Positions 49,026 to 64,000 of a stretch of DNA of 64,000 nt are shown piece by piece; position 1 is the stretch's first letter, and every line of letters begins with the position of its first letter. The translations under genes and the position numbers were made by a program. This DNA is from an uncultured Lachnospiraceae bacterium. GTDB lineage: Bacteria; Bacillota; Clostridia; Lachnospirales; Lachnospiraceae. The stretch spans positions 1-64,000 of the forward strand of contig CANRZW010000010.1 of assembly GCA_947644545.1 (NCBI GenBank), written 5' to 3'. The notes under the pieces are model-generated. The model was not told the DNA's origin. It did not search any database and saw only the letters and a list, made by a program, of their open reading frames with translations.

Positions 49026-49177
49026 GCTTTCGATCCTGCCAGAGCTTCCCTATATGGCTTTAGCAGGAACCGAAAGCAGAATGATACAAATAATCCGAAA
49101 CAGCCATTCCAGTATGGATTCTCTCCATGCTGGAATTTGTTGTAGCGGTCATGGCCGAAAAGCGGTCTATAGGGAGG
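49026..49177 (+). ncRNA. Structured leader RNA with SD-pairing pseudoknot (riboswitch-like candidate)
   Basis: P1 is GCTTTCG/CGAAAGC plus CCTGC/GCAGG (49026-49077). Its loop carries CTTCCCTATA (49045-49054), which can pair over 10 bp with TATAGGGAGG (49168-49177), the SD of the downstream kinase gene. P2 is the 13-bp hairpin ATTCCAGTATGGA/TCCATGCTGGAAT (49106-49136), perfect if one G-U pair is allowed. The arrangement of a stem-loop, a hairpin and a loop-SD pseudoknot suggests ligand- or protein-controlled translation. I do not recognise a known riboswitch class. Confidence 0.5.
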
Positions 49178-49185
49178 GCAGGCAT

Positions 49186-51765
49186 ATGGATTATTCAGGT
49201 TATATGGTCGAACGGACCGATGAGGGAACGCCATACGTCGACGAGCACGAGCAGCAGGGCAGTATGAAGAGCGTCCAGAATCTGGAGTCCGTCATCAATG
49301 AGGGACTTCGCGTCGCTCTTCTGGAGGAGACGCCTGATCAGTCTCTGGAAGTGCTGTTAAATCATCTGGGAAAAGCGCTGAATGGGGAACGAACCTACAT
49401 ATTTGAGCAGAACGAATCCGGCTGCGACGACAATACCTACGAGTGGGTAGCCGACGGCGTAAGACCGGAAAAGGAAAATCTCCAGAACGTTCCTCCGGAG
49501 GTGTGTGCAAGCTGGTATCGGAATTTCAGCATCGGCAGACATATCGTCATTGAGAACGTAGAGGACATCCGTGAGACCGATCCGCTTCAATATGAGAATC
49601 TGAAACAGCAAAACATTCATTCTCTTGTGGTGGTTCCTCTTTATAACGGCAAAAAGATCATCGGCTTTTACGGCGTGGATAATCCTCCCGTAAAGTCACT
49701 GGAATACGCATCCAATATGCTCCAGACTGCAGCATACTTTATCGTATCCTCCCTGAAACGACGTAACCTGTTCCGTGAACTGCAAAAGCGAAGCTACAAT
49801 GTTCTCCATGCACTCAGTGTGGATTATCTTGGCATCTATCAGGTGAACTTCGATACAGGCGAATGCGAAGTCTACCGAAACAGTGAACAGACAGGTATGG
49901 ACTTTGCCGCCCATTTTGCGAACGGTTATCAGACCGCTATGGAACAGTATATTTCCGAGTACGTAGTATCCAGAGATCAGGAACGGCTCCGAACTGTAAC
50001 AAAAAAAGACTATGTGCTCACCCGGCTTAAAACAAATAAAAAGTTCTCTGTCCGCTACCAGGTAAAGGACAGTTCCTTCGGGCTCAAACATCTCGAATTT
50101 CATTTCTCAGCCACGACGTCCACATCCTCCTGTGCGATCTTTGCTCTGCGGGATGTCAATGCCGTAGTAGAGCAGGAAGAAAAGTACAAACTGGAGGCAA
50201 GACAGAGCCTGGAAGACATTCTGGAAGGGGCCAGAACCGGTATCTGGACGATCGAACTGGAGGAAGGCTGCCAGCCGAGAATGTATCCGGACCGGACCAT
50301 GCGAATTCTTCTAGGTGTATCGGAAGATATCGATCCCGAAGAGTGCTATCAACACTGGTTTGAAAATATCGAATCCGATTATGTGGAGATGGTACAGGAG
50401 GCCGTACAGGAAATATTGGAGAGCGGACGCTCCGAAGTAATCTATCCCTGGAATCATCCGACCCTTGGAAAAATATATGTCCGCTGCGGCGGCGTGCCGG
50501 ACAGAACCTTTAAGAAACCGGGTACCTGCCTGAACGGATACCATCAGGATATCACAGAAACCATGGTAACAAGGAAGAAACAGGAGCAGTCCATCATGGA
50601 GCTGCTGGAACGGGTGCGGCGGGCCAATTCGGCAAAAAGCGAATTTCTTTCCCATATGTCCCACGATCTTCGCACACCAATTAACGGGATTCTGGGTATG
50701 CTGGCCATCCTGGAAAAAAGCCAGGATGATCCGGAACGACAGAAAGACTGCCGAAACAAAATCCGTATATCAACACAGCATCTGCTTTCCCTGGTCAATG
50801 ACGTGCTTCAAGTCAGCAAGTTAGACAGCGGCGGTCTGGCGGAAGTAGCAGAACCCTTCGATCTGTATGACACTCTGGAAGACTGCATTACGGTCCTCTC
50901 TCCTCAGGCAGAAGAACAGGGCATCTGCCTGTCGCTGGATATGAGCGGCCTGCAACATGGCAGAGTGATCGGAAACCCGCTTCACCTGCAACAGATCCTG
51001 ATGAATGTAATAGATAATGCTCTCAAATACAATCGTCCTAACGGTTCCGTATTTGTGCAGGCTGCAGAGACCGCCTGCCAGAACGGAACTGCAAACTACC
51101 GTTTTGTGATCGAAGATACCGGGATCGGCATCGGCGAGGAATTTAAGGAACACATTTTTGAACCTTTTACCCAGGAGCATCAGACCGCCCGCACCCACTA
51201 CAACGGCGTCGGCGTCGGTATGTCCATCGTAAAGAAGCTGGTGGATCAGCTTAAGGGAACCGTTGAAATTAACAGCCAGCTCGGCAAGGGAAGCGTGGTC
51301 AGGATCAATCTCCCCCTCCGGATCGATGAAGCATGGTGCGAACCGACTGCAGACGAAGAACAGAATATACCTGGCAATGTCGCCGGGATGCATGTCCTTC
51401 TGGTGGAAGATAATGAAATCAACTGTGAGATTATACAATACATTCTTACGGATGCAGGCGCCGAAGTCATGACTGCAAACAATGGAAAGGCTGCCGTGGA
51501 CGCATTTACAGCCTCCGATCCGGGAGCTTTTGACTGCATCCTCATGGATTTGATGATGCCGGTCATGAGCGGATATGAAGCTGCCCGGGTAATCCGGAGC
51601 CTGAACAGGACGGATGCCAAAACCGTTCCCATCATAGCCTTGTCGGCAAACGCATTTGAAGAAGATATCGCACTGGCAAAAGACGCCGGGATGAATGAAC
51701 ATCTGGCGAAACCGGTAGACATCCCCCGAATGCTCAGGGTCATGAGGCGCCTTACCGCTCAGTGA
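49186..51765 (+). CDS. Cytosolic GAF-sensor hybrid histidine kinase
   Basis: 859 aa, no transmembrane helix. Domain order: GAF (about residues 20-190; TYIFEQNES, IHSLVVVPLYNGKKIIGFYGV), two PAS-like regions (about 215-330 and 350-450), HisKA with phospho-His in SHMSHDLRTPINGI, HATPase (NVIDNALKYN, DTGIGIGEEF, GVGVGMSIVKKLV) and a C-terminal receiver (VLLVEDNEINCEI, Asp in CILMDLMMPVMSG, Lys in HLAKPVD). No output domain is present, so it must signal through a relay partner. Start is ATG 49186 with GGGAGG 8 nt upstream; the ORF track extends into the structured leader. The next gene encodes a second hybrid kinase 54 bp away. Confidence 0.9.
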   Translation: MDYSGYMVERTDEGTPYVDEHEQQGSMKSVQNLESVINEGLRVALLEETPDQSLEVLLNHLGKALNGERTYIFEQNESGCDDNTYEWVADGVRPEKENLQNVPPEVCASWYRNFSIGRHIVIENVEDIRETDPLQYENLKQQNIHSLVVVPLYNGKKIIGFYGVDNPPVKSLEYASNMLQTAAYFIVSSLKRRNLFRELQKRSYNVLHALSVDYLGIYQVNFDTGECEVYRNSEQTGMDFAAHFANGYQTAMEQYISEYVVSRDQERLRTVTKKDYVLTRLKTNKKFSVRYQVKDSSFGLKHLEFHFSATTSTSSCAIFALRDVNAVVEQEEKYKLEARQSLEDILEGARTGIWTIELEEGCQPRMYPDRTMRILLGVSEDIDPEECYQHWFENIESDYVEMVQEAVQEILESGRSEVIYPWNHPTLGKIYVRCGGVPDRTFKKPGTCLNGYHQDITETMVTRKKQEQSIMELLERVRRANSAKSEFLSHMSHDLRTPINGILGMLAILEKSQDDPERQKDCRNKIRISTQHLLSLVNDVLQVSKLDSGGLAEVAEPFDLYDTLEDCITVLSPQAEEQGICLSLDMSGLQHGRVIGNPLHLQQILMNVIDNALKYNRPNGSVFVQAAETACQNGTANYRFVIEDTGIGIGEEFKEHIFEPFTQEHQTARTHYNGVGVGMSIVKKLVDQLKGTVEINSQLGKGSVVRINLPLRIDEAWCEPTADEEQNIPGNVAGMHVLLVEDNEINCEIIQYILTDAGAEVMTANNGKAAVDAFTASDPGAFDCILMDLMMPVMSGYEAARVIRSLNRTDAKTVPIIALSANAFEEDIALAKDAGMNEHLAKPVDIPRMLRVMRRLTAQ

Positions 51766-51819
51766 TCACAGTCATGCGGCTCATTGCCCGTGAGAATAAA
51801 GTCTATAGAATGGAGATGA

Positions 51820-54438
51820 ATGAACATGAAAAACATGGCTCTGCCACGTTCTTTAAAAATCAGTATAGCAGTGATCATTTGCATCAATATTTTCGTGTTT
51901 TCGTTTCTGGGATTGTCCATTAACAATATGAGTGAGAACACAATCGAAAATATAGGCACTACTTATATGGACAGCATGAATGAACAGGTATCTTTGCATT
52001 TTGAAACAATCATCGATCTGCGCCTGACGATGGCGGAATCCATTGCACACATTGCAGTCGATAAAGAAACTTCCGGTTACGGTTCAAAAGACGAAATAGA
52101 ATACGGCGCAAAAGCAAGACATTTTCTATGTGCCGCCCTGTATTCGGCTGATGGCAATATTGAAATGATTTTCGGCGATCCCGTGAAACTTAACCACCCC
52201 GACTCCTTTTTGGAAAGTCTGATAAACGGGGATCGCAAAACAGCGTCCGGTATTGACGAAAGCGGAAACGATGTGATCCTGTTCGGCGTTCCCTGCGAAT
52301 ATCCCATGGCAGACGGAAATACCAGCCTTGCTATGGTCGTTGGCCTTTCTTCCCAATACATGGGGGAAGTTCTTTTCCTCGATTCAGATGAATCGCTGAG
52401 CTATTCCTATGTGATCCGCAAGGATGGCAGCTACGTTGTACGCAATGAAGACGGGCTCCACGAGAACTATTTTGACAGGCTTTACAGCATCTTTGAAGGA
52501 CAAAATGAGGAAGCAGAGTCTTATATCAGCCAAATGACAGATGCCATGAATGCAGGTAAAGATTATTCCGTGATACTGCAAAGCGGCGAGTCACGCCGTC
52601 ATCTGTATTGTACCAACCTTCCCTATTGTGACTGGTATCTGGTAACGGTGCTTCCTTTTGACGGGCTTGATCATGCGATCTTAAGTATGAGCAGGCATTG
52701 GCTAGTCATCGTTTATGCCGCTTTACTGGCAGCGATCGCCATGCTCCTCTACATCTTCTTTCAGTATTTAAAAGTGTTCAAAAACCAGGTGGCTGAATTA
52801 AAGTGTATGAATACAGAGATGTCCGCGGCAAAGCAGGCAGCGGAAAAAGCAAGAAAAGAAGCAGAACAGGCCAATGCAGCAAAACAGGAATTTCTCTCCA
52901 GTATGAGCCACGACATCCGCACTCCCATGAACGCCATAATCGGTATGACGTCTCTGGCTGCGTCCAATATCCATAATCCGGAACAGATTCAGGAATACCT
53001 GCGCAAGATCGCAGTATCCAGTAATCATCTGCTGGGACTGATCAATGACGTGCTGGATATTTCCAAGATCGAAAGCGGCAAAATGACGCTGAATGTGGGA
53101 CAAATGTCACTGCGGGAAGCAATAGACAGCATCGTCAATATCATGCTCCCTCAGGTTAAGGCCAAAAACCAGCAGTTTGATGCGGCTGCATACGAAATCC
53201 TTTCGGAAAATGTTTGCTGCGACAGTGTACGGCTGAATCAGGTACTGATTAACCTATTGGGAAATGCCGTCAAATTCACACCGGAAAACGGCTCAGTTCA
53301 ACTTACCGTATATCAGGAGGCATTGCCGGAGGATACTTCCTGTGTCCGCACTCACTTCTTAGTGCGTGATACCGGCATCGGTATGTCAGAAGAGTACCAA
53401 AAGCAAATATTTGACTCCTTTAGCAGAGAGGACAATACCCGCGTACAGAAAACAGAAGGCTCCGGATTGGGAATGGCTATTACCAAATATATTGTCGACG
53501 CCATGGGCGGTCACATTTCCGTTCACAGCAAGCAGGGAGCAGGCAGTGAATTCCACGTGATTCTCGACCTGGCAAAAGCGCCGGCACAGAAGATCGATGC
53601 GCCGCTTCCCGGCTGGCATGTCCTTGTCGTTGACCGCGATGAGCGGTTATGCAGCAGTGCGGTCCGTTCCTTAGACGCAATCGGTATTTACGCCGACTGG
53701 TGTTCCGGCTTAGAACAGGCAATGGAACTGATCACCAAACGTCGGCGCCTCAGTGACGATTACCAAATGCTGCTTCTTGGCTGGGAATTGTCAGATAATA
53801 ACGGCATCGAAGCTGCCCGGGCAATCCGCTTGGCTTTCGGGGAAGACGGCCCGGCTTTATTGCTTGCGGCCTGCGACTGGAGTGAAATCGAAGAAGAAGC
53901 CAGAACGGCCGGTATTTCCGGGTTCCTCTCCAAACCGCTGTTTACCTCCGTTTTGTATGATGCCCTGAAAGTATATGCCGACACCGCTGCCGAAATGGCC
54001 GTCGATGACGACCAAACCGCCTGCACCGAAAGAACGGTCGACCTGGCGCTGCAGGGAAAACATATTTTACTGGCAGAAGATAACGAGCTTAACTGGGAAG
54101 TGGCAAACGGACTGCTTTCCTCTCTTGCAATGGACTTGGATTGGGTTGAAAACGGGCAGATCTGCGTGGAAAAATTCACCAACTCCCCCGTCGGATATTA
54201 TGACGCGATCCTTATGGATGTACGAATGCCCGTGATGGACGGCTACGAAGCGACAAAGGCCATCCGGCGTCTGCAGCGCGCAGACGCACAGCTTCCCATT
54301 ATTGCCATGACCGCCGATGCTTTTTCGGAAGATATCCAAAAGTGTTTAGATTGCGGCATGAACGACCATTTGGCAAAGCCGATCGATATACAGGACGTGA
54401 CCTTCAAATTGAAAAAATATATTCATCTCAATCTTTGA
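51820..54438 (+). CDS. Membrane hybrid histidine kinase with one degenerate and one intact receiver
   Basis: 872 aa. TM1 ISIAVIICINIFVFSFLGLSI, a Cache-like extracellular sensor of about 240 residues, TM2 WLVIVYAALLAAIAMLLYIFF, coiled linker, HisKA (SSMSHDIRTPMNAI), HATPase (LLGNAVKFTPENG, DTGIGMSEEY, GSGLGMAITKYIV) and two receivers. In the first, the acceptor Asp is replaced by Gly (MLLLGWELSDNNG). The second is intact (AILMDVRMPVMDG, Lys in HLAKPID). The start is ATG 51820 with GGAG 4 nt upstream; ATG 51826 is possible. Its 3' end overlaps the convergent FGGY kinase gene by 11 bp. Confidence 0.9.
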   Translation: MNMKNMALPRSLKISIAVIICINIFVFSFLGLSINNMSENTIENIGTTYMDSMNEQVSLHFETIIDLRLTMAESIAHIAVDKETSGYGSKDEIEYGAKARHFLCAALYSADGNIEMIFGDPVKLNHPDSFLESLINGDRKTASGIDESGNDVILFGVPCEYPMADGNTSLAMVVGLSSQYMGEVLFLDSDESLSYSYVIRKDGSYVVRNEDGLHENYFDRLYSIFEGQNEEAESYISQMTDAMNAGKDYSVILQSGESRRHLYCTNLPYCDWYLVTVLPFDGLDHAILSMSRHWLVIVYAALLAAIAMLLYIFFQYLKVFKNQVAELKCMNTEMSAAKQAAEKARKEAEQANAAKQEFLSSMSHDIRTPMNAIIGMTSLAASNIHNPEQIQEYLRKIAVSSNHLLGLINDVLDISKIESGKMTLNVGQMSLREAIDSIVNIMLPQVKAKNQQFDAAAYEILSENVCCDSVRLNQVLINLLGNAVKFTPENGSVQLTVYQEALPEDTSCVRTHFLVRDTGIGMSEEYQKQIFDSFSREDNTRVQKTEGSGLGMAITKYIVDAMGGHISVHSKQGAGSEFHVILDLAKAPAQKIDAPLPGWHVLVVDRDERLCSSAVRSLDAIGIYADWCSGLEQAMELITKRRRLSDDYQMLLLGWELSDNNGIEAARAIRLAFGEDGPALLLAACDWSEIEEEARTAGISGFLSKPLFTSVLYDALKVYADTAAEMAVDDDQTACTERTVDLALQGKHILLAEDNELNWEVANGLLSSLAMDLDWVENGQICVEKFTNSPVGYYDAILMDVRMPVMDGYEATKAIRRLQRADAQLPIIAMTADAFSEDIQKCLDCGMNDHLAKPIDIQDVTFKLKKYIHLNL

Positions 54439-55735
54439 TCTTCGATAAAGCCCACATGGCGGCACCTGCTGCCGCCTCCTCCTCGCTATCCGCTACTCTG
54501 ACCGGAAGGCCGAAAAGCCGCTCCACCTCCTGTCGCAGCAGTCTGTTCTTTCGGATGCCGTTCCCACTGGCGACGATCTCCCTTTTCCCCTGGCGCAGCG
54601 CAGCGGGCAGCTGTTCATACATCCGAAAAAGTTCGAGTGCCATCCCTGTCGCATAAGCCCTGACTACATCCCCAAGAGTAAAATTCTCAGGCGTCAGCCC
54701 CTCTATGCTTCCTCCCGGCGCTGCCCCGTTCCGGCTGCCGTAAAGTAGCGGCATTATCCGCAGATCCGTTGCCGGCACGCGTTCCCCCGCTTCCTCCAGC
54801 TTTTCATAGACATCTGCCTCGATTCCCGTCACGAGAAATACCGTGCTTTTGACAAACTCCGCCAACCGCTCGTAAACCTTACCGCCGTTCACCGAAGCCA
54901 GCACATACAGGAACCCCTTTTCCGTGAAAGGACGTATCTCGGCTCCCGTTCCAGGGATCAGATCTCTGTGAAAAAAGGAAACCTGAGCCCCGGTTCCCAC
55001 ATTGATCCCCAGCACCTGCTCATCCTCACCTATGGCGGCATAGAAGCTTGCCTGATTGTCGCCCTGTGCACAGGTTACCGGGATCCCCTGATAGGTACCC
55101 AGTATGGCCCCGTCCGCTCTCACCTGCGGATAATAGGATGTTGCCACGCCGGCCTTCTCCAGGGATTCCAGATCAAAACCCCTCTCTCCCAGGCAGAAAC
55201 CGCCCACACTGGCCGCAATAGAAGGACTCATCACCGGCTCTCTTATTCCACACAACTGCATGGCTGCATAGTCTCCGATATTGGCAAACCGTACCGCCTC
55301 TGCCGGAATCCGCCCTGTCTGCTGCAGATAGAAATGGGTCACGCACCCGTAACCGGTGTACAGCTCATGGCCCGTCGCACGGGACAGATAGGAAGCGTAC
55401 GTCTCCTCCCCGAAAGCCTCATTTCCCGATTCTACCTTCCACGTATAGTAAGGCGAGACCGCTCTTCCTTCCCGGTCCACATACAGGATTCCATGCATTT
55501 GGCTCGAAATACCAATCACAGCGGTTTTATCGTCGTTGTTGCCGCTATTGCAGCTTAGCAGCAGATCATCCAGCATCCTTTTTACTGTTGTAAAGATTCT
55601 GTCAGGATCCTGCCGGAACGTATCCGCCAGAAAGTGGTTCTTCTCCTGCCGCACTTCCCGAAGCTGCCCCGCAGCCTCCTCATATACACCCAGACAGATG
55701 CTGGTAGTGCCAATATCAATACCGATTGCTCTCAT
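54428..55735 (-). CDS. FGGY-family carbohydrate kinase (sedoheptulokinase-like)
   Basis: Sugar kinase of 435 aa, slightly short for the FGGY family. The N-terminal ATPase lobe has IGIDIGTTSICLGVY, the substrate region has GISSQMHGILYVDREGRAVSPYYTW, and the C-terminal lobe has REIVASGNGIRKNRLLRQEVE and EEEAAAGAAMWAL. The QMHG segment with GILYVD is most like sedoheptulokinase-type members, but substrate assignment is tentative. No metabolic neighbour clarifies the sugar. Confidence 0.8.
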   Translation of the reverse strand: MRAIGIDIGTTSICLGVYEEAAGQLREVRQEKNHFLADTFRQDPDRIFTTVKRMLDDLLLSCNSGNNDDKTAVIGISSQMHGILYVDREGRAVSPYYTWKVESGNEAFGEETYASYLSRATGHELYTGYGCVTHFYLQQTGRIPAEAVRFANIGDYAAMQLCGIREPVMSPSIAASVGGFCLGERGFDLESLEKAGVATSYYPQVRADGAILGTYQGIPVTCAQGDNQASFYAAIGEDEQVLGINVGTGAQVSFFHRDLIPGTGAEIRPFTEKGFLYVLASVNGGKVYERLAEFVKSTVFLVTGIEADVYEKLEEAGERVPATDLRIMPLLYGSRNGAAPGGSIEGLTPENFTLGDVVRAYATGMALELFRMYEQLPAALRQGKREIVASGNGIRKNRLLRQEVERLFGLPVRVADSEEEAAAGAAMWALSKIKD

Positions 55736-57292: not shown

Positions 57293-57531
57293 GTTCTCTT
57301 CTGTCCTTTCTGTTTCCTGTTATCTATCACGAACAACACTCGGAATTGCATTAAACCATTGCCTCCACAAGCGTTCTATCTCCAAATACGATTTCCTTCA
57401 CACCTATTTGCTTCTTTTTATTAAAGTTAAATACAATTTGCATTTACATTAAACTGTCTGCCCATAGACTTCCCGTGCCCTCTTTTTTCTTCATTATAGT
57501 CGAATCATTGCCGCTTTACAAGGAAATCCGA

Positions 57532-58260
57532 TTACTCCAATCCTATGGAAGGCTGACGCCACTTCGTCAGTGCAACCCGGTAAGCATCGTTCATGATCCT
57601 GCTCCCATTCTGCATACACAACTGGTAATGCCCCGGCAGGATGATATCACATTGGAATCGGGAAAATCGTTTGATTGATTCAAAGAACTTTTCCCTGTTA
57701 TAATCTACACCCCCTTCCCACCCCAGCAAGGCTTCCTTACAATCCCGGTCAACATTCAATACGTCTCCCGTAAAGAAAATCACCTTCTCTTCCATAACGA
57801 GCCGGTAAAAAACAGATCCGTCCGTATGACCTGGCGCCTCGATCACTTCAAAGCTCAACCCGCCAACTTCTATCTTGTCACCATCCTTCACCTTCCGGTC
57901 AATCTTACATGGTACATACGGTCTTTTTATCGGAAACGGGGCAAAATCGCAGATCTCCGTCAGCGCACCATTCTCGATCGCCCAGGCATCCTGTGCGCCT
58001 GCAACGATCTTAGCGCCCATTTCCCTGAATCTGTATGCATTTCCGATATGATTTAAATGCTTGTGGCTCAACAGGACATACGACACCGGATAGCGATCCA
58101 ATCCCCAGAAAGCCATATTCTCCAGGATCAGTTCATATTCCTCTTCTGTTTCAGCCGAATCAATCAATACCAGTTCCTCCCCTGCCTTTATCACGAAAAT
58201 ATTGGCTATATTGGCATAAGCACCGCCAAGAACCTGATAGATATTCTTCATAACCTGCAT
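57532..58260 (-). CDS. MBL-fold metallo-hydrolase with HxHxNH site
   Basis: Metallo-beta-lactamase-fold hydrolase, 242 aa, paralogous to the gene upstream. Metal-site motifs: LLSHKHLNHIGN (HxHxNH in place of HxHxDH), His in APGHTDGSVFY, Asp in FFTGDVLNVD, His in ILPGHYQL. The Asp-to-Asn change affects the second metal site. It is the last gene of the third ABC sugar operon, 67 bp after its paralogue. Lactonase, phosphodiesterase or glyoxalase-II-like activity are all possible. Confidence 0.85.
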   Translation of the reverse strand: MQVMKNIYQVLGGAYANIANIFVIKAGEELVLIDSAETEEEYELILENMAFWGLDRYPVSYVLLSHKHLNHIGNAYRFREMGAKIVAGAQDAWAIENGALTEICDFAPFPIKRPYVPCKIDRKVKDGDKIEVGGLSFEVIEAPGHTDGSVFYRLVMEEKVIFFTGDVLNVDRDCKEALLGWEGGVDYNREKFFESIKRFSRFQCDIILPGHYQLCMQNGSRIMNDAYRVALTKWRQPSIGLE

Positions 58261-58327
58261 ACTTGCACCCCCAATGCTTCTCCCTATTTTTATCCAGCCA
58301 CCTGCACACCTTGCTGCCTTCTACGAA

Positions 58328-59071
58328 TCAACGGGACATGGAATCCGCAAACACTGGCGTGTGCGGCTGAGTTGCAAGCAGAAGCCGCGCCCTTAGAAAC
58401 GCACCATTGAAAAGCCTTCCGCCGTCCTTCATACACACTTCTCCATGGCCGGGAAGTACAACATCCGCCTCCAGCTGAGCCAACCGTCTCAGACTCTCCA
58501 TATATTCCGCCTCGTTATAATCCACGCCGCCGGTCCAGCCTACCATGCTTTCCTGACATAGTTTATCTGCCAAAACGGTATCCCCGGTAAACATTACGAT
58601 CTTATTATCCATTCTCGTCCTGTAGAGTACCGAACCGTCTGAATGCCCCGGCACATGGATCACCTCAAAGGAATATTCCCCTGCCCGAATTTGCTCTCCA
58701 TCCTGTACGGCAGTACAATCCTTTACGGCACGATAGGGTTTTGCTCCCGGAAATCCGTACGCTGCCACCCGGTCATCTCCTGTCAGCACCGCCTCCTTCT
58801 CCGCCGCATGAACACAAATCTCTGCCCCTTCTTCCTCCAGCCGATAACAATTACCGGAATGCTCATAATGTGCATGTGTCAACAACACTTTCGTTATCTT
58901 GTACCGATCCAGTCCCCAGTACCCCAAAACTTTCTTGATAACATGAAAAGCCTGTTCATCCAGTCCACTGTCGATCAGAACAATACCTTCCTGTGTCTGT
59001 ACGGCATATACGTTCTCATGTACGCCATACATACATCCTGCAAGCTGATATAAATTCCGCAGCAGCCTCAT
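58328..59071 (-). CDS. MBL-fold metallo-hydrolase with HxHxEH site
   Basis: 247 aa, paralogue of the downstream gene. Motifs: LLTHAHYEHSGN (HxHxEH in place of HxHxDH), VPGHSDGSVLY, FTGDTVLADK, VLPGHGEV. Shared segments such as GWTGGVDYNEAEYMESLRRL suggest a common specific substrate class with its paralogue. AGGAGG lies 10 nt before the ATG, and the start is 20 bp after the permease stop, so it is cotranscribed with the importer. It may process the imported compound. Confidence 0.86.
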   Translation of the reverse strand: MRLLRNLYQLAGCMYGVHENVYAVQTQEGIVLIDSGLDEQAFHVIKKVLGYWGLDRYKITKVLLTHAHYEHSGNCYRLEEEGAEICVHAAEKEAVLTGDDRVAAYGFPGAKPYRAVKDCTAVQDGEQIRAGEYSFEVIHVPGHSDGSVLYRTRMDNKIVMFTGDTVLADKLCQESMVGWTGGVDYNEAEYMESLRRLAQLEADVVLPGHGEVCMKDGGRLFNGAFLRARLLLATQPHTPVFADSMSR

Positions 59072-59091
59072 ATAGTTTTCTCCACCTCCTG

Positions 59092-59919
59092 TTATCCCTT
59101 GACGGCTCCGGCCGTCATACCCCCGATCACCTGTTCCTGAAATGCCACAAAAAACACCATCATGGGAACGATTGCAATCATAAGCCCTGCGCAGAGTGTC
59201 GCGTAATCTGTACTGTAACGCCCTCTCAGTGCAAAAATCCCCTGCGTGATCGTCTTTATCTTCTCATTTGCCAGCATGATATAAGCAAACAGATACTCAT
59301 TCCAGCAGTTCAGAAGCGCCAGCGTGCCAATGGTTGCCAGTCCCGGTCTTGCCATGGGCAGAGCAATCTTATAAAACATCTTGAAATATCCACATCCATC
59401 TATATAAGCCGCTTCATCCAGTTCCATCGGAATGCTCTTCATAAAGCTGGTCAGGATAAAGACCGCCAGAGAAAGATTGGCCGCAGTGATCAAAATAACA
59501 AATCCCTGTCTCGTATTATAAATCGCAAGCTCCTTCATAATAATAAAAGTCGGAATCAGGACCGCATGCATGGGAATCATGATCCCCAATGTGAAATATC
59601 CATACAGAATCTTTGACTGCCAGACCCTCGTCAGCACAAAAGCCGCCATGGAAGCAAGCAGCAGGATCAATATTACACCCGAAGCCGAGTACAGCACGCT
59701 GTTTAAAAAATTCACACCAATCTTTACGTCTCTCCACGCCTTAAGGTAGCTGGAGAAATCGAAAGAATGCGGAAGCGCCAGCGGATCTGCCAATATCGCG
59801 ATATTTTCTTTAAAAGAACTCATCAATACCCAAAAGAACGGATAGAAATCAACCAGCGCCAAAAACCCCAGCGCCCCATATTTAATCAACCTTCCTGCAT
59901 TCCCTCTTCTTCTCTTCAT
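59092..59919 (-). CDS. Carbohydrate ABC transporter permease (MalG type)
   Basis: MalG-group permease, about 275 aa from MKRRRGNAG. The ORF-track start 59967 overlaps the upstream permease gene; 59931 is also possible. First helix ALGFLALVDFYPFFWVLM; EAA loop LDEAAYIDGCGYFKMF then KIALPMAR; C-terminus GGMTAGAVKG. It is part of the third sugar importer. Confidence 0.92.
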   Translation of the reverse strand: MKRRRGNAGRLIKYGALGFLALVDFYPFFWVLMSSFKENIAILADPLALPHSFDFSSYLKAWRDVKIGVNFLNSVLYSASGVILILLLASMAAFVLTRVWQSKILYGYFTLGIMIPMHAVLIPTFIIMKELAIYNTRQGFVILITAANLSLAVFILTSFMKSIPMELDEAAYIDGCGYFKMFYKIALPMARPGLATIGTLALLNCWNEYLFAYIMLANEKIKTITQGIFALRGRYSTDYATLCAGLMIAIVPMMVFFVAFQEQVIGGMTAGAVKG

Positions 59920-59959
59920 CCTTTCCCCCATTCTTCCACAGCCTGTTGCTATTTCTGAT

Positions 59960-60823
59960 TCAACCACTTCGATTCAACCGCTTCATCAGGATCGTCAACG
60001 CTATGGAATAGATCATGATCGTTACCGTAATAGAACTTCCCAATCCGAATTTATTCTGGACAAACGCCGTCTTATACATAAATACCGCCAGGAAAGAGGA
60101 TGCATTGCCCGGTCCTCCCTGCGTCAGCGCCCAGGAATAGTCGAAGGACTTCAAGGAGCCTGTAACCACCAGAATGATCGCAACTACAATCGCGTCCCAG
60201 CTCATCGGCACCACAATACGCGCAAAGATCTGAAAAGAATTAGCCCCATCGATATCGGCGCTTTCCAACATCTCGTGATTGATCGACTGCATCGACGCAA
60301 ATATAATCACCAGCGAATACCCGATATACTGCCAGATCTGCGGAAAAATAACGGAATTTACCACTACCTTTACATCCGAAAGCCAATTTCTTTTCAGAAA
60401 AGGCAAATGCAGCATATCCAGGATCCTGTTGATCGGACCGGCATCCCCATTATAAAAAACGGAAAACATGATACCAATCGCAATGGGCGCAACCACCACC
60501 GGAATGAAATAAAAAGTCCTGAAAACCTTATATCCCTTAGTCCGACGCAGCAGCAGAAACGATAAAACCGTTGCAATCGGTATCTGGACAAAAACAGAGG
60601 CGCCGACCAGTCTCAATGTATTGAACAGAACTCTCCAGTAATCCTTCTGTGAAAAGACCGTTATATAATTTTGAATACCGTTCATCCTAGGACTGCCGAT
60701 TCCGTCCCATGCCGTAAAGCTGTAATACGTGGAACAAAACACCGGCGCGATAATAAAAACCGTATATAAGATAAGCGCCGGCATGATGAATGCTATGGCA
60801 AACCAATACTTTCTTTTTTTCAT
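59960..60823 (-). CDS. Sugar ABC transporter permease (MalF type)
   Basis: MalF-group permease, 287 aa from ATG 60823 (GGGGGT 5 nt upstream; ORF-track ATG 60835 lies 4 codons earlier). First helix WFAIAFIMPALILYTVFIIAP; EAA loop LESADIDGANSFQIFARIVVPM; TQGGPGNASSFLAVFMY is a conserved sugar-permease segment. It follows the binding-protein gene. Confidence 0.93.
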   Translation of the reverse strand: MKKRKYWFAIAFIMPALILYTVFIIAPVFCSTYYSFTAWDGIGSPRMNGIQNYITVFSQKDYWRVLFNTLRLVGASVFVQIPIATVLSFLLLRRTKGYKVFRTFYFIPVVVAPIAIGIMFSVFYNGDAGPINRILDMLHLPFLKRNWLSDVKVVVNSVIFPQIWQYIGYSLVIIFASMQSINHEMLESADIDGANSFQIFARIVVPMSWDAIVVAIILVVTGSLKSFDYSWALTQGGPGNASSFLAVFMYKTAFVQNKFGLGSSITVTIMIYSIALTILMKRLNRSG

Positions 60824-60888
60824 ATTTACCCCCATGCCGAAGCGTCACAAATTCCAACGGAACTTGTTTAAGTTTGTGGAACTAAATT

Positions 60889-62256
60889 CTATTCCACATT
60901 GTCAAACGCAGCCTGCACCTTCTGTACGAAATCCACACCGTCAACAGCTCCCGCAAACATTTCGTCCAAGCCGTCAGAATACGTCGTAGCAGTATCTGTC
61001 GTCGGCATTAAGAACCAGAGCGGCTGATAAGTCGGCTTGTCGTTCGTGTACTCAATCGCTTTTGCCATCCAGGGATCCAGCTCGGAAGCATCAAGCGTAA
61101 TGTTCTTGGCCGGCATGGTAGCCGTCTTCCCCAATGCGCTGAAAATTTCATCCGAAAGCAGGAAATCCACAAAATCAATCACCGCTTCCTTCCTGACAGG
61201 ATCCTCAAAAGCTTCTGTGGTAATGCATAATCCTTCCGAAATCGCCCCCATATTAAACTCGGCAGGTACCGTGGCCGCCTCCGGCATGGTTGGGAAAGGA
61301 GCCATCACAGTCGTATTCAATACCTCTTCATTGATAGAGGAGAAAATCCAGGGTGCACACATCATCATTGCCGCTTTTGACTGTGTATAGAGCAGAGCCG
61401 CATTCTCTCCACCGCCGTTTGCGATCGTATCCTCCGGATACATGCCAAGATCCCTCATTTCAACGATATACTCCGCCGCTCTCTTCGTCGCCTCCGATGC
61501 AAACTCATGGTCGATCGTCAGATCTCTCGTTTCGTCAATTCCGCCCGCCATCTGATAGAGCACCTGGTTGTAAAGAATGTGTCCGTAATCACCGCCTTTT
61601 GAGCCTACTCCGATTGTCGTTATTCCATGCTCCCGAAATACCTCATTACATTGCTTCAATTGATCATATGTGGTCGGAATTTCCAGACCATATTCCTGAA
61701 ACAACGCCTCATTGTAAATGCAGAACCATTTAAAACTTTCCACCGGAAACATAAACTCCTTACCATCCAGTGTCGAATTCAGAAATGTGCTGTCATCCCA
61801 CTGCTCTCTTCGGATCGTCTTGCTTTCCGCACAATAAGTATCTACATCTACCAGCAGTCCGTTCTCCACCATCGAACCCAGGTTGGATTCCCCGCCCCAA
61901 TACATAAATACATCGGGCAGATCACCGGCTGCCAGATCTACCTTGATCTTATCCTGCAGATCCATTCCACTTGCTGTTTCCAGAATAATATTCACGGAAT
62001 CTTTATGGCTTTCCACATAGTCCGTGATCATTTTCTCATAAGCAGCATTTTTGGGATCGGCGGTTCCTGTCCAATTATAGGCGAACCGGATCGTTGGAAT
62101 ATCCGCATTGCCGCTCTCCTCACGTTCCTGTGCTGCTCTTTCCTCCTGGTCCTCATTGTCTCGCTGCACAGACTCCGAGGAAGCGGATGCACATCCGCCA
62201 AGCACTGCCACAACCATTGATGCCGCTAACAAGATCCCCATAACCTTTACCTTCAT
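60889..62256 (-). CDS. Sugar ABC transporter substrate-binding lipoprotein
   Basis: Family 1 solute-binding protein, about 455 aa. Lipoprotein signal: MKVKVMGILLAASMVVAVLGGC. The mature domain starts IPTIRFAYNWTGTADPKNAAYEKM, with LAAGDLPDVFMYWGG typical of sugar-binding members. Start ATG 62256 has AAGGAGG 8 nt upstream; 62262 and 62274 are in-frame alternatives. It is first in the operon binding protein, MalF, MalG, MBL, MBL and is likely controlled by the YesN/YesM pair upstream. Confidence 0.92.
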   Translation of the reverse strand: MKVKVMGILLAASMVVAVLGGCASASSESVQRDNEDQEERAAQEREESGNADIPTIRFAYNWTGTADPKNAAYEKMITDYVESHKDSVNIILETASGMDLQDKIKVDLAAGDLPDVFMYWGGESNLGSMVENGLLVDVDTYCAESKTIRREQWDDSTFLNSTLDGKEFMFPVESFKWFCIYNEALFQEYGLEIPTTYDQLKQCNEVFREHGITTIGVGSKGGDYGHILYNQVLYQMAGGIDETRDLTIDHEFASEATKRAAEYIVEMRDLGMYPEDTIANGGGENAALLYTQSKAAMMMCAPWIFSSINEEVLNTTVMAPFPTMPEAATVPAEFNMGAISEGLCITTEAFEDPVRKEAVIDFVDFLLSDEIFSALGKTATMPAKNITLDASELDPWMAKAIEYTNDKPTYQPLWFLMPTTDTATTYSDGLDEMFAGAVDGVDFVQKVQAAFDNVE

Positions 62257-62433
62257 ATTCATGCCCTCCTTCATTACTATAGTCCCTGTAATTACTCAGT
62301 TTCCTTCTGTACTTTTATAGTAAATGCCTGATAACAGCCTGTAAATTGAACTATTCTCAGAAACCTTAACCTATTTATATATTTTGCCTGTTTTGATTAA
62401 AATCAACCATACCAGGACTCTTTCTGTACCCGA

Positions 62434-62474
62434 CAAAAAAGCCCTGCGGACCATACATAGTCCTCAGAGCCTTT
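62434..62474 (-). terminator. Terminator after the YesN-like gene
   Basis: Minus strand: GGCTCTGAGGAC, a loop, then GGTCCGCAGGGC and TTTTTTG directly after the stop. It separates the regulator genes from the importer operon. Confidence 0.82.
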
Positions 62475-62476
62475 TG

Positions 62477-63277
62477 CTACTGCACCGGTTTTCCTTCCCG
62501 ATATTCCGACGGCGTCACCCCGACATATTTTTTGAAAATACGATTAAAATAAGCAATGCTGTTATAGCCCGACATATCCGCCACTTCATTTATTTTCAGG
62601 AAAGGCTGCCGTAAAAGTATCTTCGCATTTTCCAGCCGCAGGCTGTTCAAGTAATCATTAAACCCGCAGCCGGTCTCTTTCTTAAACAACTGCGAAAAAT
62701 ATGCCGGGTTCACAAAAACCTTTCCCGCAATCATTTCCAGGCTGATATCCTCGTTATAATGATTCCGGATATAGTCAATGGCCAGTCTTACCGACTCTTT
62801 CCCACTTACAACGGGATCTGCTTCAACCTCACTGCCCCCTGAAAGTTTCGCGATCTCCGTCTTCAGCTTGGAAACATACTTTGACGACTTTTCCCGTGCA
62901 AGAATCGCGTCTCTGGCTCTTTCCAGGATTCTGCGCATTTCGGCTTCCTCCAGTGGTTTCAGCAGATAGTCAAAAGCCTCCATCCGGATCGCTTCCCTGG
63001 CATACTGAAATTCATCATAACCGCTGATGAAAATCACGATCGTATCCTTATTCTTCTTGTTCTTTCTTATACGGTCAATCATCTGCAGGCCGTTAACACC
63101 AGGCATACAGATATCTGTGATAACGATTTCCGGATGCAGTCTTTCTATCATCTTCAACCCTTCCTCACCGTCATATGCCTCTCCCACAGGCTTCATACCA
63201 AGTTCATCCCAGGGGATCAGCCGCTTTACCAGAGAACAAATCGGTTTTTCGTCATCCAGAATTAAAACCTTGATCAT
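62477..63277 (-). CDS. YesN-type AraC-family response regulator
   Basis: Compact response regulator of 266 aa. Receiver: [14 protein letters not shown], acceptor Asp in [13 protein letters not shown], Lys in [11 protein letters not shown] short linker leads to the AraC HTH ([22 protein letters not shown], then [22 protein letters not shown]). It lies directly after the YesM-type kinase gene and before the third ABC operon, its likely target. Confidence 0.93.
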
Positions 63278-63354: not shown

Positions 63355-64000
63355 TCACCCTTCTGTTCTGTACGGCAGCCGAACAGTCACCTGCGTCCCT
63401 TCTCCCTGACGGCTTTCCACCCGAATCCCGTAAGGCTCCCCGTAATACAGTTTCAGGCGCATATCTACATTGCTCAGGCCGATACCATGGGACGTTTCCC
63501 GTTTGTCTGCCAGATCGGCATTAATTTTGTCAAGCTGTTCCGGAGCCATTCCAATTCCGTTATCGATAATGCGGAATACGATCTCGCCCTCTTTGAGAGC
63601 GCCAATGACCGTCACAACACCACTGCCCTTTTTTGGCTCCACGCCATGACTGACCGCATTCTCAATAATCGGCTGCAAGATGAACTTTATCATGCGGCAG
63701 TCCATGACCGTCTCGTCAATATAATACAGGATCGACAGCCGGTCTCCATACCGGAAATTCTGAATCTGCGCATAGCTTTTGATATGATCGATCTCCTCCC
63801 GGACCGTTACGATATTCTCTTTGCTGATGCTGTACCGAAAAGTCTTCGCCAGCGCCTTCGTCATCTCGCCAATGCTTATCACACCATACTCCAGTGCAAT
63901 GCTCCTGATATCTTCCAGTGTATTATAGAGAAAATGTGGATTGATCTGCGCCTGCAGCGCCCGCAGCTGCGTGAATGCCCGCTCCTTTTCCTTTTCAACC
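63355..64000 (-). CDS. YesM-type sensor histidine kinase (partial, runs off the window)
   Basis: The C-terminal part of a YesM-family kinase, open to the window edge. The phospho-His box is QINPHFLYNTLEDIR (codons beyond the ORF-track start), followed by the HATPase domain: IIENAVSHGVEPKKGSG, DNGIGMAPEQL, GIGLSNVDMRLKLYYG. The sensor and membrane parts lie beyond position 64000. It pairs with the YesN-type regulator 77 bp downstream. Confidence 0.92.
   Translation of the reverse strand, partial: VEKEKERAFTQLRALQAQINPHFLYNTLEDIRSIALEYGVISIGEMTKALAKTFRYSISKENIVTVREEIDHIKSYAQIQNFRYGDRLSILYYIDETVMDCRMIKFILQPIIENAVSHGVEPKKGSGVVTVIGALKEGEIVFRIIDNGIGMAPEQLDKINADLADKRETSHGIGLSNVDMRLKLYYGEPYGIRVESRQGEGTQVTVRLPYRTEG

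Follow-up and report, generated by a model that had tools for sequence, protein, structure and literature searches.

Genes and signals of the locus

The window, by which we mean the whole 64,000-nucleotide stretch analysed, comprises bases 1-64000 of contig C10 in a draft genome of 4.07 Mb and 83 contigs. Towards its end, seven minus-strand genes run, in order of transcription, from a YesM-type sensor kinase and a YesN-type regulator through a binding protein and two permeases to two MBL-fold proteins, here called MBL1 and MBL2. This order and strand, together with the adjacent YesN/YesM pair, had been proposed in a sequence-only reading of the DNA, and both are borne out by the open reading frames and by Pfam (SBP_bac_1, two BPD_transp_1 and two Lactamase_B matches for the operon; Response_reg/AraC and His_kinase/HATPase for the pair). 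The features are listed below, with the source of each assignment in parentheses.

57532..58260, minus strand: MBL2, an MBL-fold protein of 242 aa with HKHLNH (ORF, Pfam Lactamase_B, alignment, AF2, Foldseek)
58051..58053, minus strand: Asn70 of MBL2, codon AAT, one base from an Asp codon (sequence)
58328..59071, minus strand: MBL1, an MBL-fold protein of 247 aa with HAHYEH (ORF, Pfam Lactamase_B, alignment, AF2, Foldseek)
58862..58864, minus strand: Glu70 of MBL1, codon GAG, one base from an Asp codon (sequence)
59092..59967, minus strand: second permease, BPD_transp_1, MalG/GlcU-like (ORF, Pfam, NCBIfam)
59960..60835, minus strand: first permease, BPD_transp_1, UgpA/GlcT-like, overlapping the next gene by 8 bases (ORF, Pfam, NCBIfam)
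60889..62256, minus strand: lipoprotein-type solute-binding protein, SBP_bac_1 (ORF, Pfam, ribosome site)
62317..62345, minus strand: promoter-like TTTACA-17-TACTAT in the gap 5' of the binding-protein gene (pattern match only)
62440..62452, minus strand: terminator-like hairpin and T run directly 3' of yesN (pattern match only)
62477..63277, minus strand: YesN-type response regulator, Response_reg and AraC DNA-binding domain (ORF, Pfam)
63355..64000 and on to contig position 65097, minus strand: YesM-type sensor kinase, His_kinase and HATPase_c (ORF, Pfam)

From the binding protein through MBL2, the intergenic gaps measure 53, -8, 20 and 67 bases, and an AGGAGG ribosome site lies just 5' of MBL1; this spacing suggests that the binding protein through MBL2 form one co-transcribed unit. 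A gap of 200 bases parts this unit from YesM/YesN, in which a kinase lies beside a Response_reg and AraC regulator, the arrangement of a two-component system. For the binding protein, the start at 62256 fits the ribosome site AAGGAGGG better than does an upstream ATG at 62274. The promoter-like and terminator-like patterns carry little weight, since shuffled sequence gives about as many matches. The combination of SBP_bac_1 with two BPD_transp_1 permeases of UgpA/MalG/GlcTU type identifies a CUT1 carbohydrate ABC importer, and the ORF list holds no ATPase gene in the operon. The nearest solved sequence to the binding protein is 4g68, described as an "ABC transporter", followed by several named sugar-binding proteins. 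Elsewhere in the window, two large histidine kinase/response-regulator hybrid genes stand in tandem on the plus strand (49054-54438).

Fold and metal ligands of MBL1 and MBL2

The two hydrolase-like proteins are 41% identical over 238 aa, and both give full Pfam Lactamase_B matches (E 9e-19 and 1e-22; 68.6 and 81.6 bits against a cut-off of 22.7). Their AF2 models, built without templates, have pLDDT values of 86.0 (MBL1) and 92.0 (MBL2) and match the alpha-beta/beta-alpha fold of MBLs in Foldseek with a probability of 1.00 and TM scores (by query) of about 0.62-0.75. The best fold matches are subclass B3 beta-lactamases, and PqsE and the crystallised D120N (2qjs) and D120C mutants of L1 are also among the matches. 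By profile and predicted fold, MBL1 and MBL2 are divergent members of the MBL-fold superfamily, an assignment that does not extend to a canonical metal centre. In the models, the N-terminus of each protein already forms the opening beta strands of the fold; neither has a signal peptide, which points to a cytoplasmic location.

Few residues of the MBL fold are as constant as the second-site Asp of HxHxDH, whose study has relied mostly on mutants of beta-lactamases. Neither protein has this Asp: MBL1 reads T-HAHYEH and MBL2 S-HKHLNH, as the sequence-only reading had recognised in naming them HxHxEH and HxHxNH. All other metal ligands are kept in the alignment, namely H66, H68, H71, H143, D164 and H209 in MBL1 and H66, H68, H71, H145, D166 and H211 in MBL2. 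These include, in both, a bridging Asp within "TGD", as is typical of glyoxalase II and lactonases. The same reading had taken HxHxDH as the normal motif, and we find the position otherwise fixed: Asp occupies it in every member (10/10, all HxHxDH) of a set of ten relatives, which come from nine further genomes of the family, the order and the class and share 26-48% identity with MBL2 and about 29-40% with MBL1. Among the MBL loci retrieved from this genome and from two congeners, Asp is likewise present wherever HxHxxH was seen, save in MBL1 and MBL2 (three loci, L066-L068, showed no motif). Because these relatives and the other motif-bearing MBLs all have HxHxDH, the Glu and the Asn are particular to the MBL1/MBL2 pair in the sample examined. 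With full Lactamase_B matches and Asp in all ten relatives, the observation is not a chance one. A literature search found no paper that names HXHXEH, and the sole paper found for HXHXNH concerns a demethylase and not MBLs.

Nearly all positions that are invariant in the ten relatives are kept in both proteins. MBL1 departs at its position 119 from an Asp fixed in the ten, while MBL2 departs twice from residues fixed in 10/10, at G36 (G36A) and at T65 (T65S), the latter immediately preceding the HxHxxH motif. These two changes, along with the charge that Asn70 removes at the second metal, would fit an MBL2 that is non-hydrolytic, a pseudo-enzyme that partners or controls either MBL1 or the regulator. 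The presence of PqsE among the fold matches points the same way, the main role of PqsE being thought non-catalytic. However, the six other ligands and almost every invariant position are in place, which is not what relaxed selection should produce, and the crystallised L1 D120N mutant indicates that the fold tolerates Asn; we regard the pairing of one catalyst with one pseudo-enzyme as a tentative alternative, on balance unlikely.

We find no substrate-specific signature for either protein, all NCBIfam matches being sub-threshold with B3 beta-lactamase at the top. Membership of subclass B3 was rejected, as the scores for NF033105 (91.7 and 90.1 bits) fall far under its 240-bit cut-off and the bridging Asp of glyoxalase II type is present. 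Membership of the UlaG family was also set aside, with Lactamase_B as the top match, Lactamase_B_2 below its cut-off and Lactamase_B_3 giving no match.

Distribution, chromosomal site and relatives

We searched for the pair in 76 congeners, 299 and 397 genomes of the family, 344 of the order, 391 of the class and 300 of the phylum, about 1,430 distinct genomes in all, which form a sample rather than a census; the profile searches among them were run under strict limits. Protein and profile searches of these roughly 1,430 other genomes found no second copy of the pair, nor any close orthologue of MBL1 or MBL2, and searches of plasmids and of IMG/VR for relatives of the two gave none. One scan of genome contigs, with poorly chosen patterns, gave a distant protein with HxHxDH. 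A phage search gave one match, 32% identical to MBL1, at 1156-1719 of MT835471.1, near the end of an unannotated human-faecal record that may be bacterial sequence. For now, the pair is a well-documented oddity of one genome. That one genome only carries it, and that each of the two codons lies a single base from an Asp codon, would also fit assembly or sequencing errors in the draft contig. Against this, two independent errors would have to strike the same codon position in neighbouring genes, neither reading frame is broken and the rest of the motif is not the same in the two (HAHYEH versus HKHLNH), and we consider such errors highly improbable.

Two congeners, G031 and G392, lack all 7.8 kb of the module (window position 57523 to contig position 65312) between collinear flanks of about 80-87% DNA identity that carry FGGY kinase, NUDIX and Fpg genes and an AI-2E permease gene, joined by a chemoreceptor gene in G031 and an MFS gene in G392. 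These comparisons mark the module as accessory and its site as variable. The module has a G+C content of 45-51%, a little below that of most flanks (49-53%). The operon is rare and probably acquired. At the module site, we observe a small gene in G031 and the same small gene plus a GH123 gene in G392. The latter (L049:5414-7171) encodes a GH123-type glycosidase at the equivalent position, which suggests a site where carbohydrate genes come and go. A functional link between the operon and the nearby FGGY kinase (54428-55735) was considered and dropped, as the kinase stays with Fpg/NUDIX in congeners that have no module.

Sister CUT1 operons occur in the genus (G392, G023 and G009), with 37-38% identity to the window in the binding protein and 43-46% in the permeases. 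Like the window, they combine a binding protein and two permeases with YesM/YesN; in these operons, a GH35/42 enzyme and then YesM/YesN follow the transporter genes, whereas in the window the two MBL genes follow the permeases and YesM/YesN stand in front. The GH35/42 enzyme was identified by profile in G392, and G023 and G009 have a protein with the same sequence start. This comparison supports the view that the MBL pair occupies the position that GH35/42 holds in the sister operons. The sequence-only reading had interpreted the locus as an uptake-and-cleavage system without a glycosidase in which the two hydrolases may act in sequence on an imported lactone, phosphodiester or glycan derivative. 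The first part stands, with the MBL pair in the place of the GH35/42 enzyme, whereas the substrate class is a guess. The pair has been seen only here and is not conserved as a unit; conservation thus offers no support for sequential action or for the association with the transporter.

In the tree, the branches of MBL1, MBL2, a pair of proteins from G904 and others meet at a fork that is not resolved, and MBL1 and MBL2 do not emerge as sisters. MBL2 shares 48% and 45% identity with the two G904 proteins, which belong to another family and have HEHFDH, and is closer to them than to MBL1. A recent local tandem duplication of MBL1/MBL2 is not supported, given the unresolved tree and the nearer kinship of MBL2 to the G904 proteins. 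The G904 genes lie on separate contigs (L030:9583-10293 and L031:7170-7880), one of them near amidohydrolase and isochorismatase genes; transport genes are also nearby, and there is no sugar operon. The relatives from G497 and G762 are likewise found outside sugar loci. Five other relatives (G075, G1375, G738, G283 and G470) form a well-supported clade (99/98). In the four neighbourhoods read for this clade (G075, G738, G283 and G470), its members lie in carbohydrate loci, as does the G310 relative: those of G075 and G310 are beside CUT1-type ABC genes and GH3, PF10282 lactonase, SnoaL and HAD genes, those of G470 and G738 beside genes for an FGGY kinase, a UlaG-like MBL and AP_endonuc_2, and that of G283 beside PTS and SnoaL genes.

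The closest MBL2 relatives being outside sugar loci, and the best sequence and fold library matches being subclass B3 beta-lactamases, one might suppose that the pair is a detoxification passenger (e.g., beta-lactamase, acyl-homoserine lactonase or thioesterase) acquired beside the importer with no metabolic link to it. We judge this clearly unlikely: the B3 scores of 92 and 90 bits are far under the cut-off of 240, the bridging Asp of glyoxalase II type is present, and the MBL genes follow the permeases on the same strand at gaps of 20 and 67 bases. B3 enzymes are, moreover, exported, unlike MBL1 and MBL2 with their lack of a signal peptide.

A candidate role behind a sugar importer

The reading we prefer, to which we give about an even chance of being right, is that MBL1 and MBL2 are cytoplasmic hydrolases in the enzyme slot of the importer, with a likely ester or lactone substrate, MBL1 doing most of the work and MBL2 weakened or mono-metal. 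YesM/YesN would sense a ligand outside the cell and turn on the CUT1-type binding-protein importer, and the two proteins, having no signal peptides, would hydrolyse the imported compound in the cytoplasm, replacing the glycosidase of the sister operons. The bond cleaved would most likely be the ester or lactone bond of a sugar-derived compound. MBL1, with its Glu, would most likely keep a two-metal site of altered geometry; it is predicted from its ligands to be probably active and would serve as the main hydrolase. MBL2, with its Asn, would most likely bind the second metal weakly, and the prediction is of a probably weakened or mono-metal enzyme, slower or differently tuned. We infer both the activity and this division of labour. 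Several observations favour the reading: the gene order and spacing on one strand, the lack of signal peptides, the retention of all ligands but one in both proteins, the occurrence of MBL relatives in carbohydrate loci, the sister operons with GH35/42, the sugar-binding proteins among the neighbours of the binding protein and the absence of the module from the collinear site in G031 and G392. Against it, the relatives from G904, the closest to MBL2, and those from G497 and G762 are not in such loci, no substrate-specific signature emerged and the pair is seen once. It is decidedly doubtful that the two co-encoded enzymes exchanged Asp independently, one for Glu and one for Asn, so that two differently tuned metal centres share a single catabolic task on a carbohydrate derivative brought in by the importer; such a natural pair would be previously undescribed.

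Although unusual, the pair is a variation on a well-known fold and a familiar arrangement; it does not constitute a new type of system. HxHxxH ... H ... D (bridging, in TGD) ... H is the ligand pattern of glyoxalase II and AHL lactonases, and the window proteins share it, although HxHxDH is altered in both and overall sequence similarity is weak. Subclass B3 (BJP-1, L1 and the B3-Q/B3-E variants) provides the best sequence and fold matches and a natural ligand replacement as well, known at position 116 (PMC10318434), whereas in MBL1 and MBL2 the replaced residue is the second-site Asp (position 120); sub-cut-off scores, the extra bridging Asp and the lack of a signal peptide also set the window proteins apart. 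Engineered D120E in IMP-1 is reported, in a paper citing other work, to suppress the loss of a proton from metal-bound water (PMC3846777), so reduced activity is possible even for MBL1. A natural, neighbouring Glu/Asn pair would allow study of how each residue affects metal loading and reaction type in enzymes under selection, and it would add an enzyme class to those that bacteria place behind sugar importers.

The ula regulon offers a further close arrangement, in that UlaG is an MBL-fold sugar-lactone hydrolase that works behind sugar-type uptake as part of a regulon for catabolism (PMC3219644). The likeness lies in the combination of an MBL-fold enzyme with sugar-type uptake, which is a PTS in ula and an ABC importer in the window. 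The UlaG-like proteins that neighbour some relatives match Lactamase_B_2/_3 and keep the Asp (HYHQDH/HYHNDH), whereas MBL1 and MBL2 match Lactamase_B and have the Asp replaced. At two loci, relatives of MBL1/MBL2 have a UlaG-like protein close by. As a separate observation, MBL relatives are repeatedly found next to SnoaL_4-like proteins, one or two at a time and about 225-255 aa long (L032:3266-13150, L012:6478-7919 and L010:1434-2865), a pairing for which we found no match to a known pathway; the first of these loci also contains an SDR and a UlaG-like MBL.
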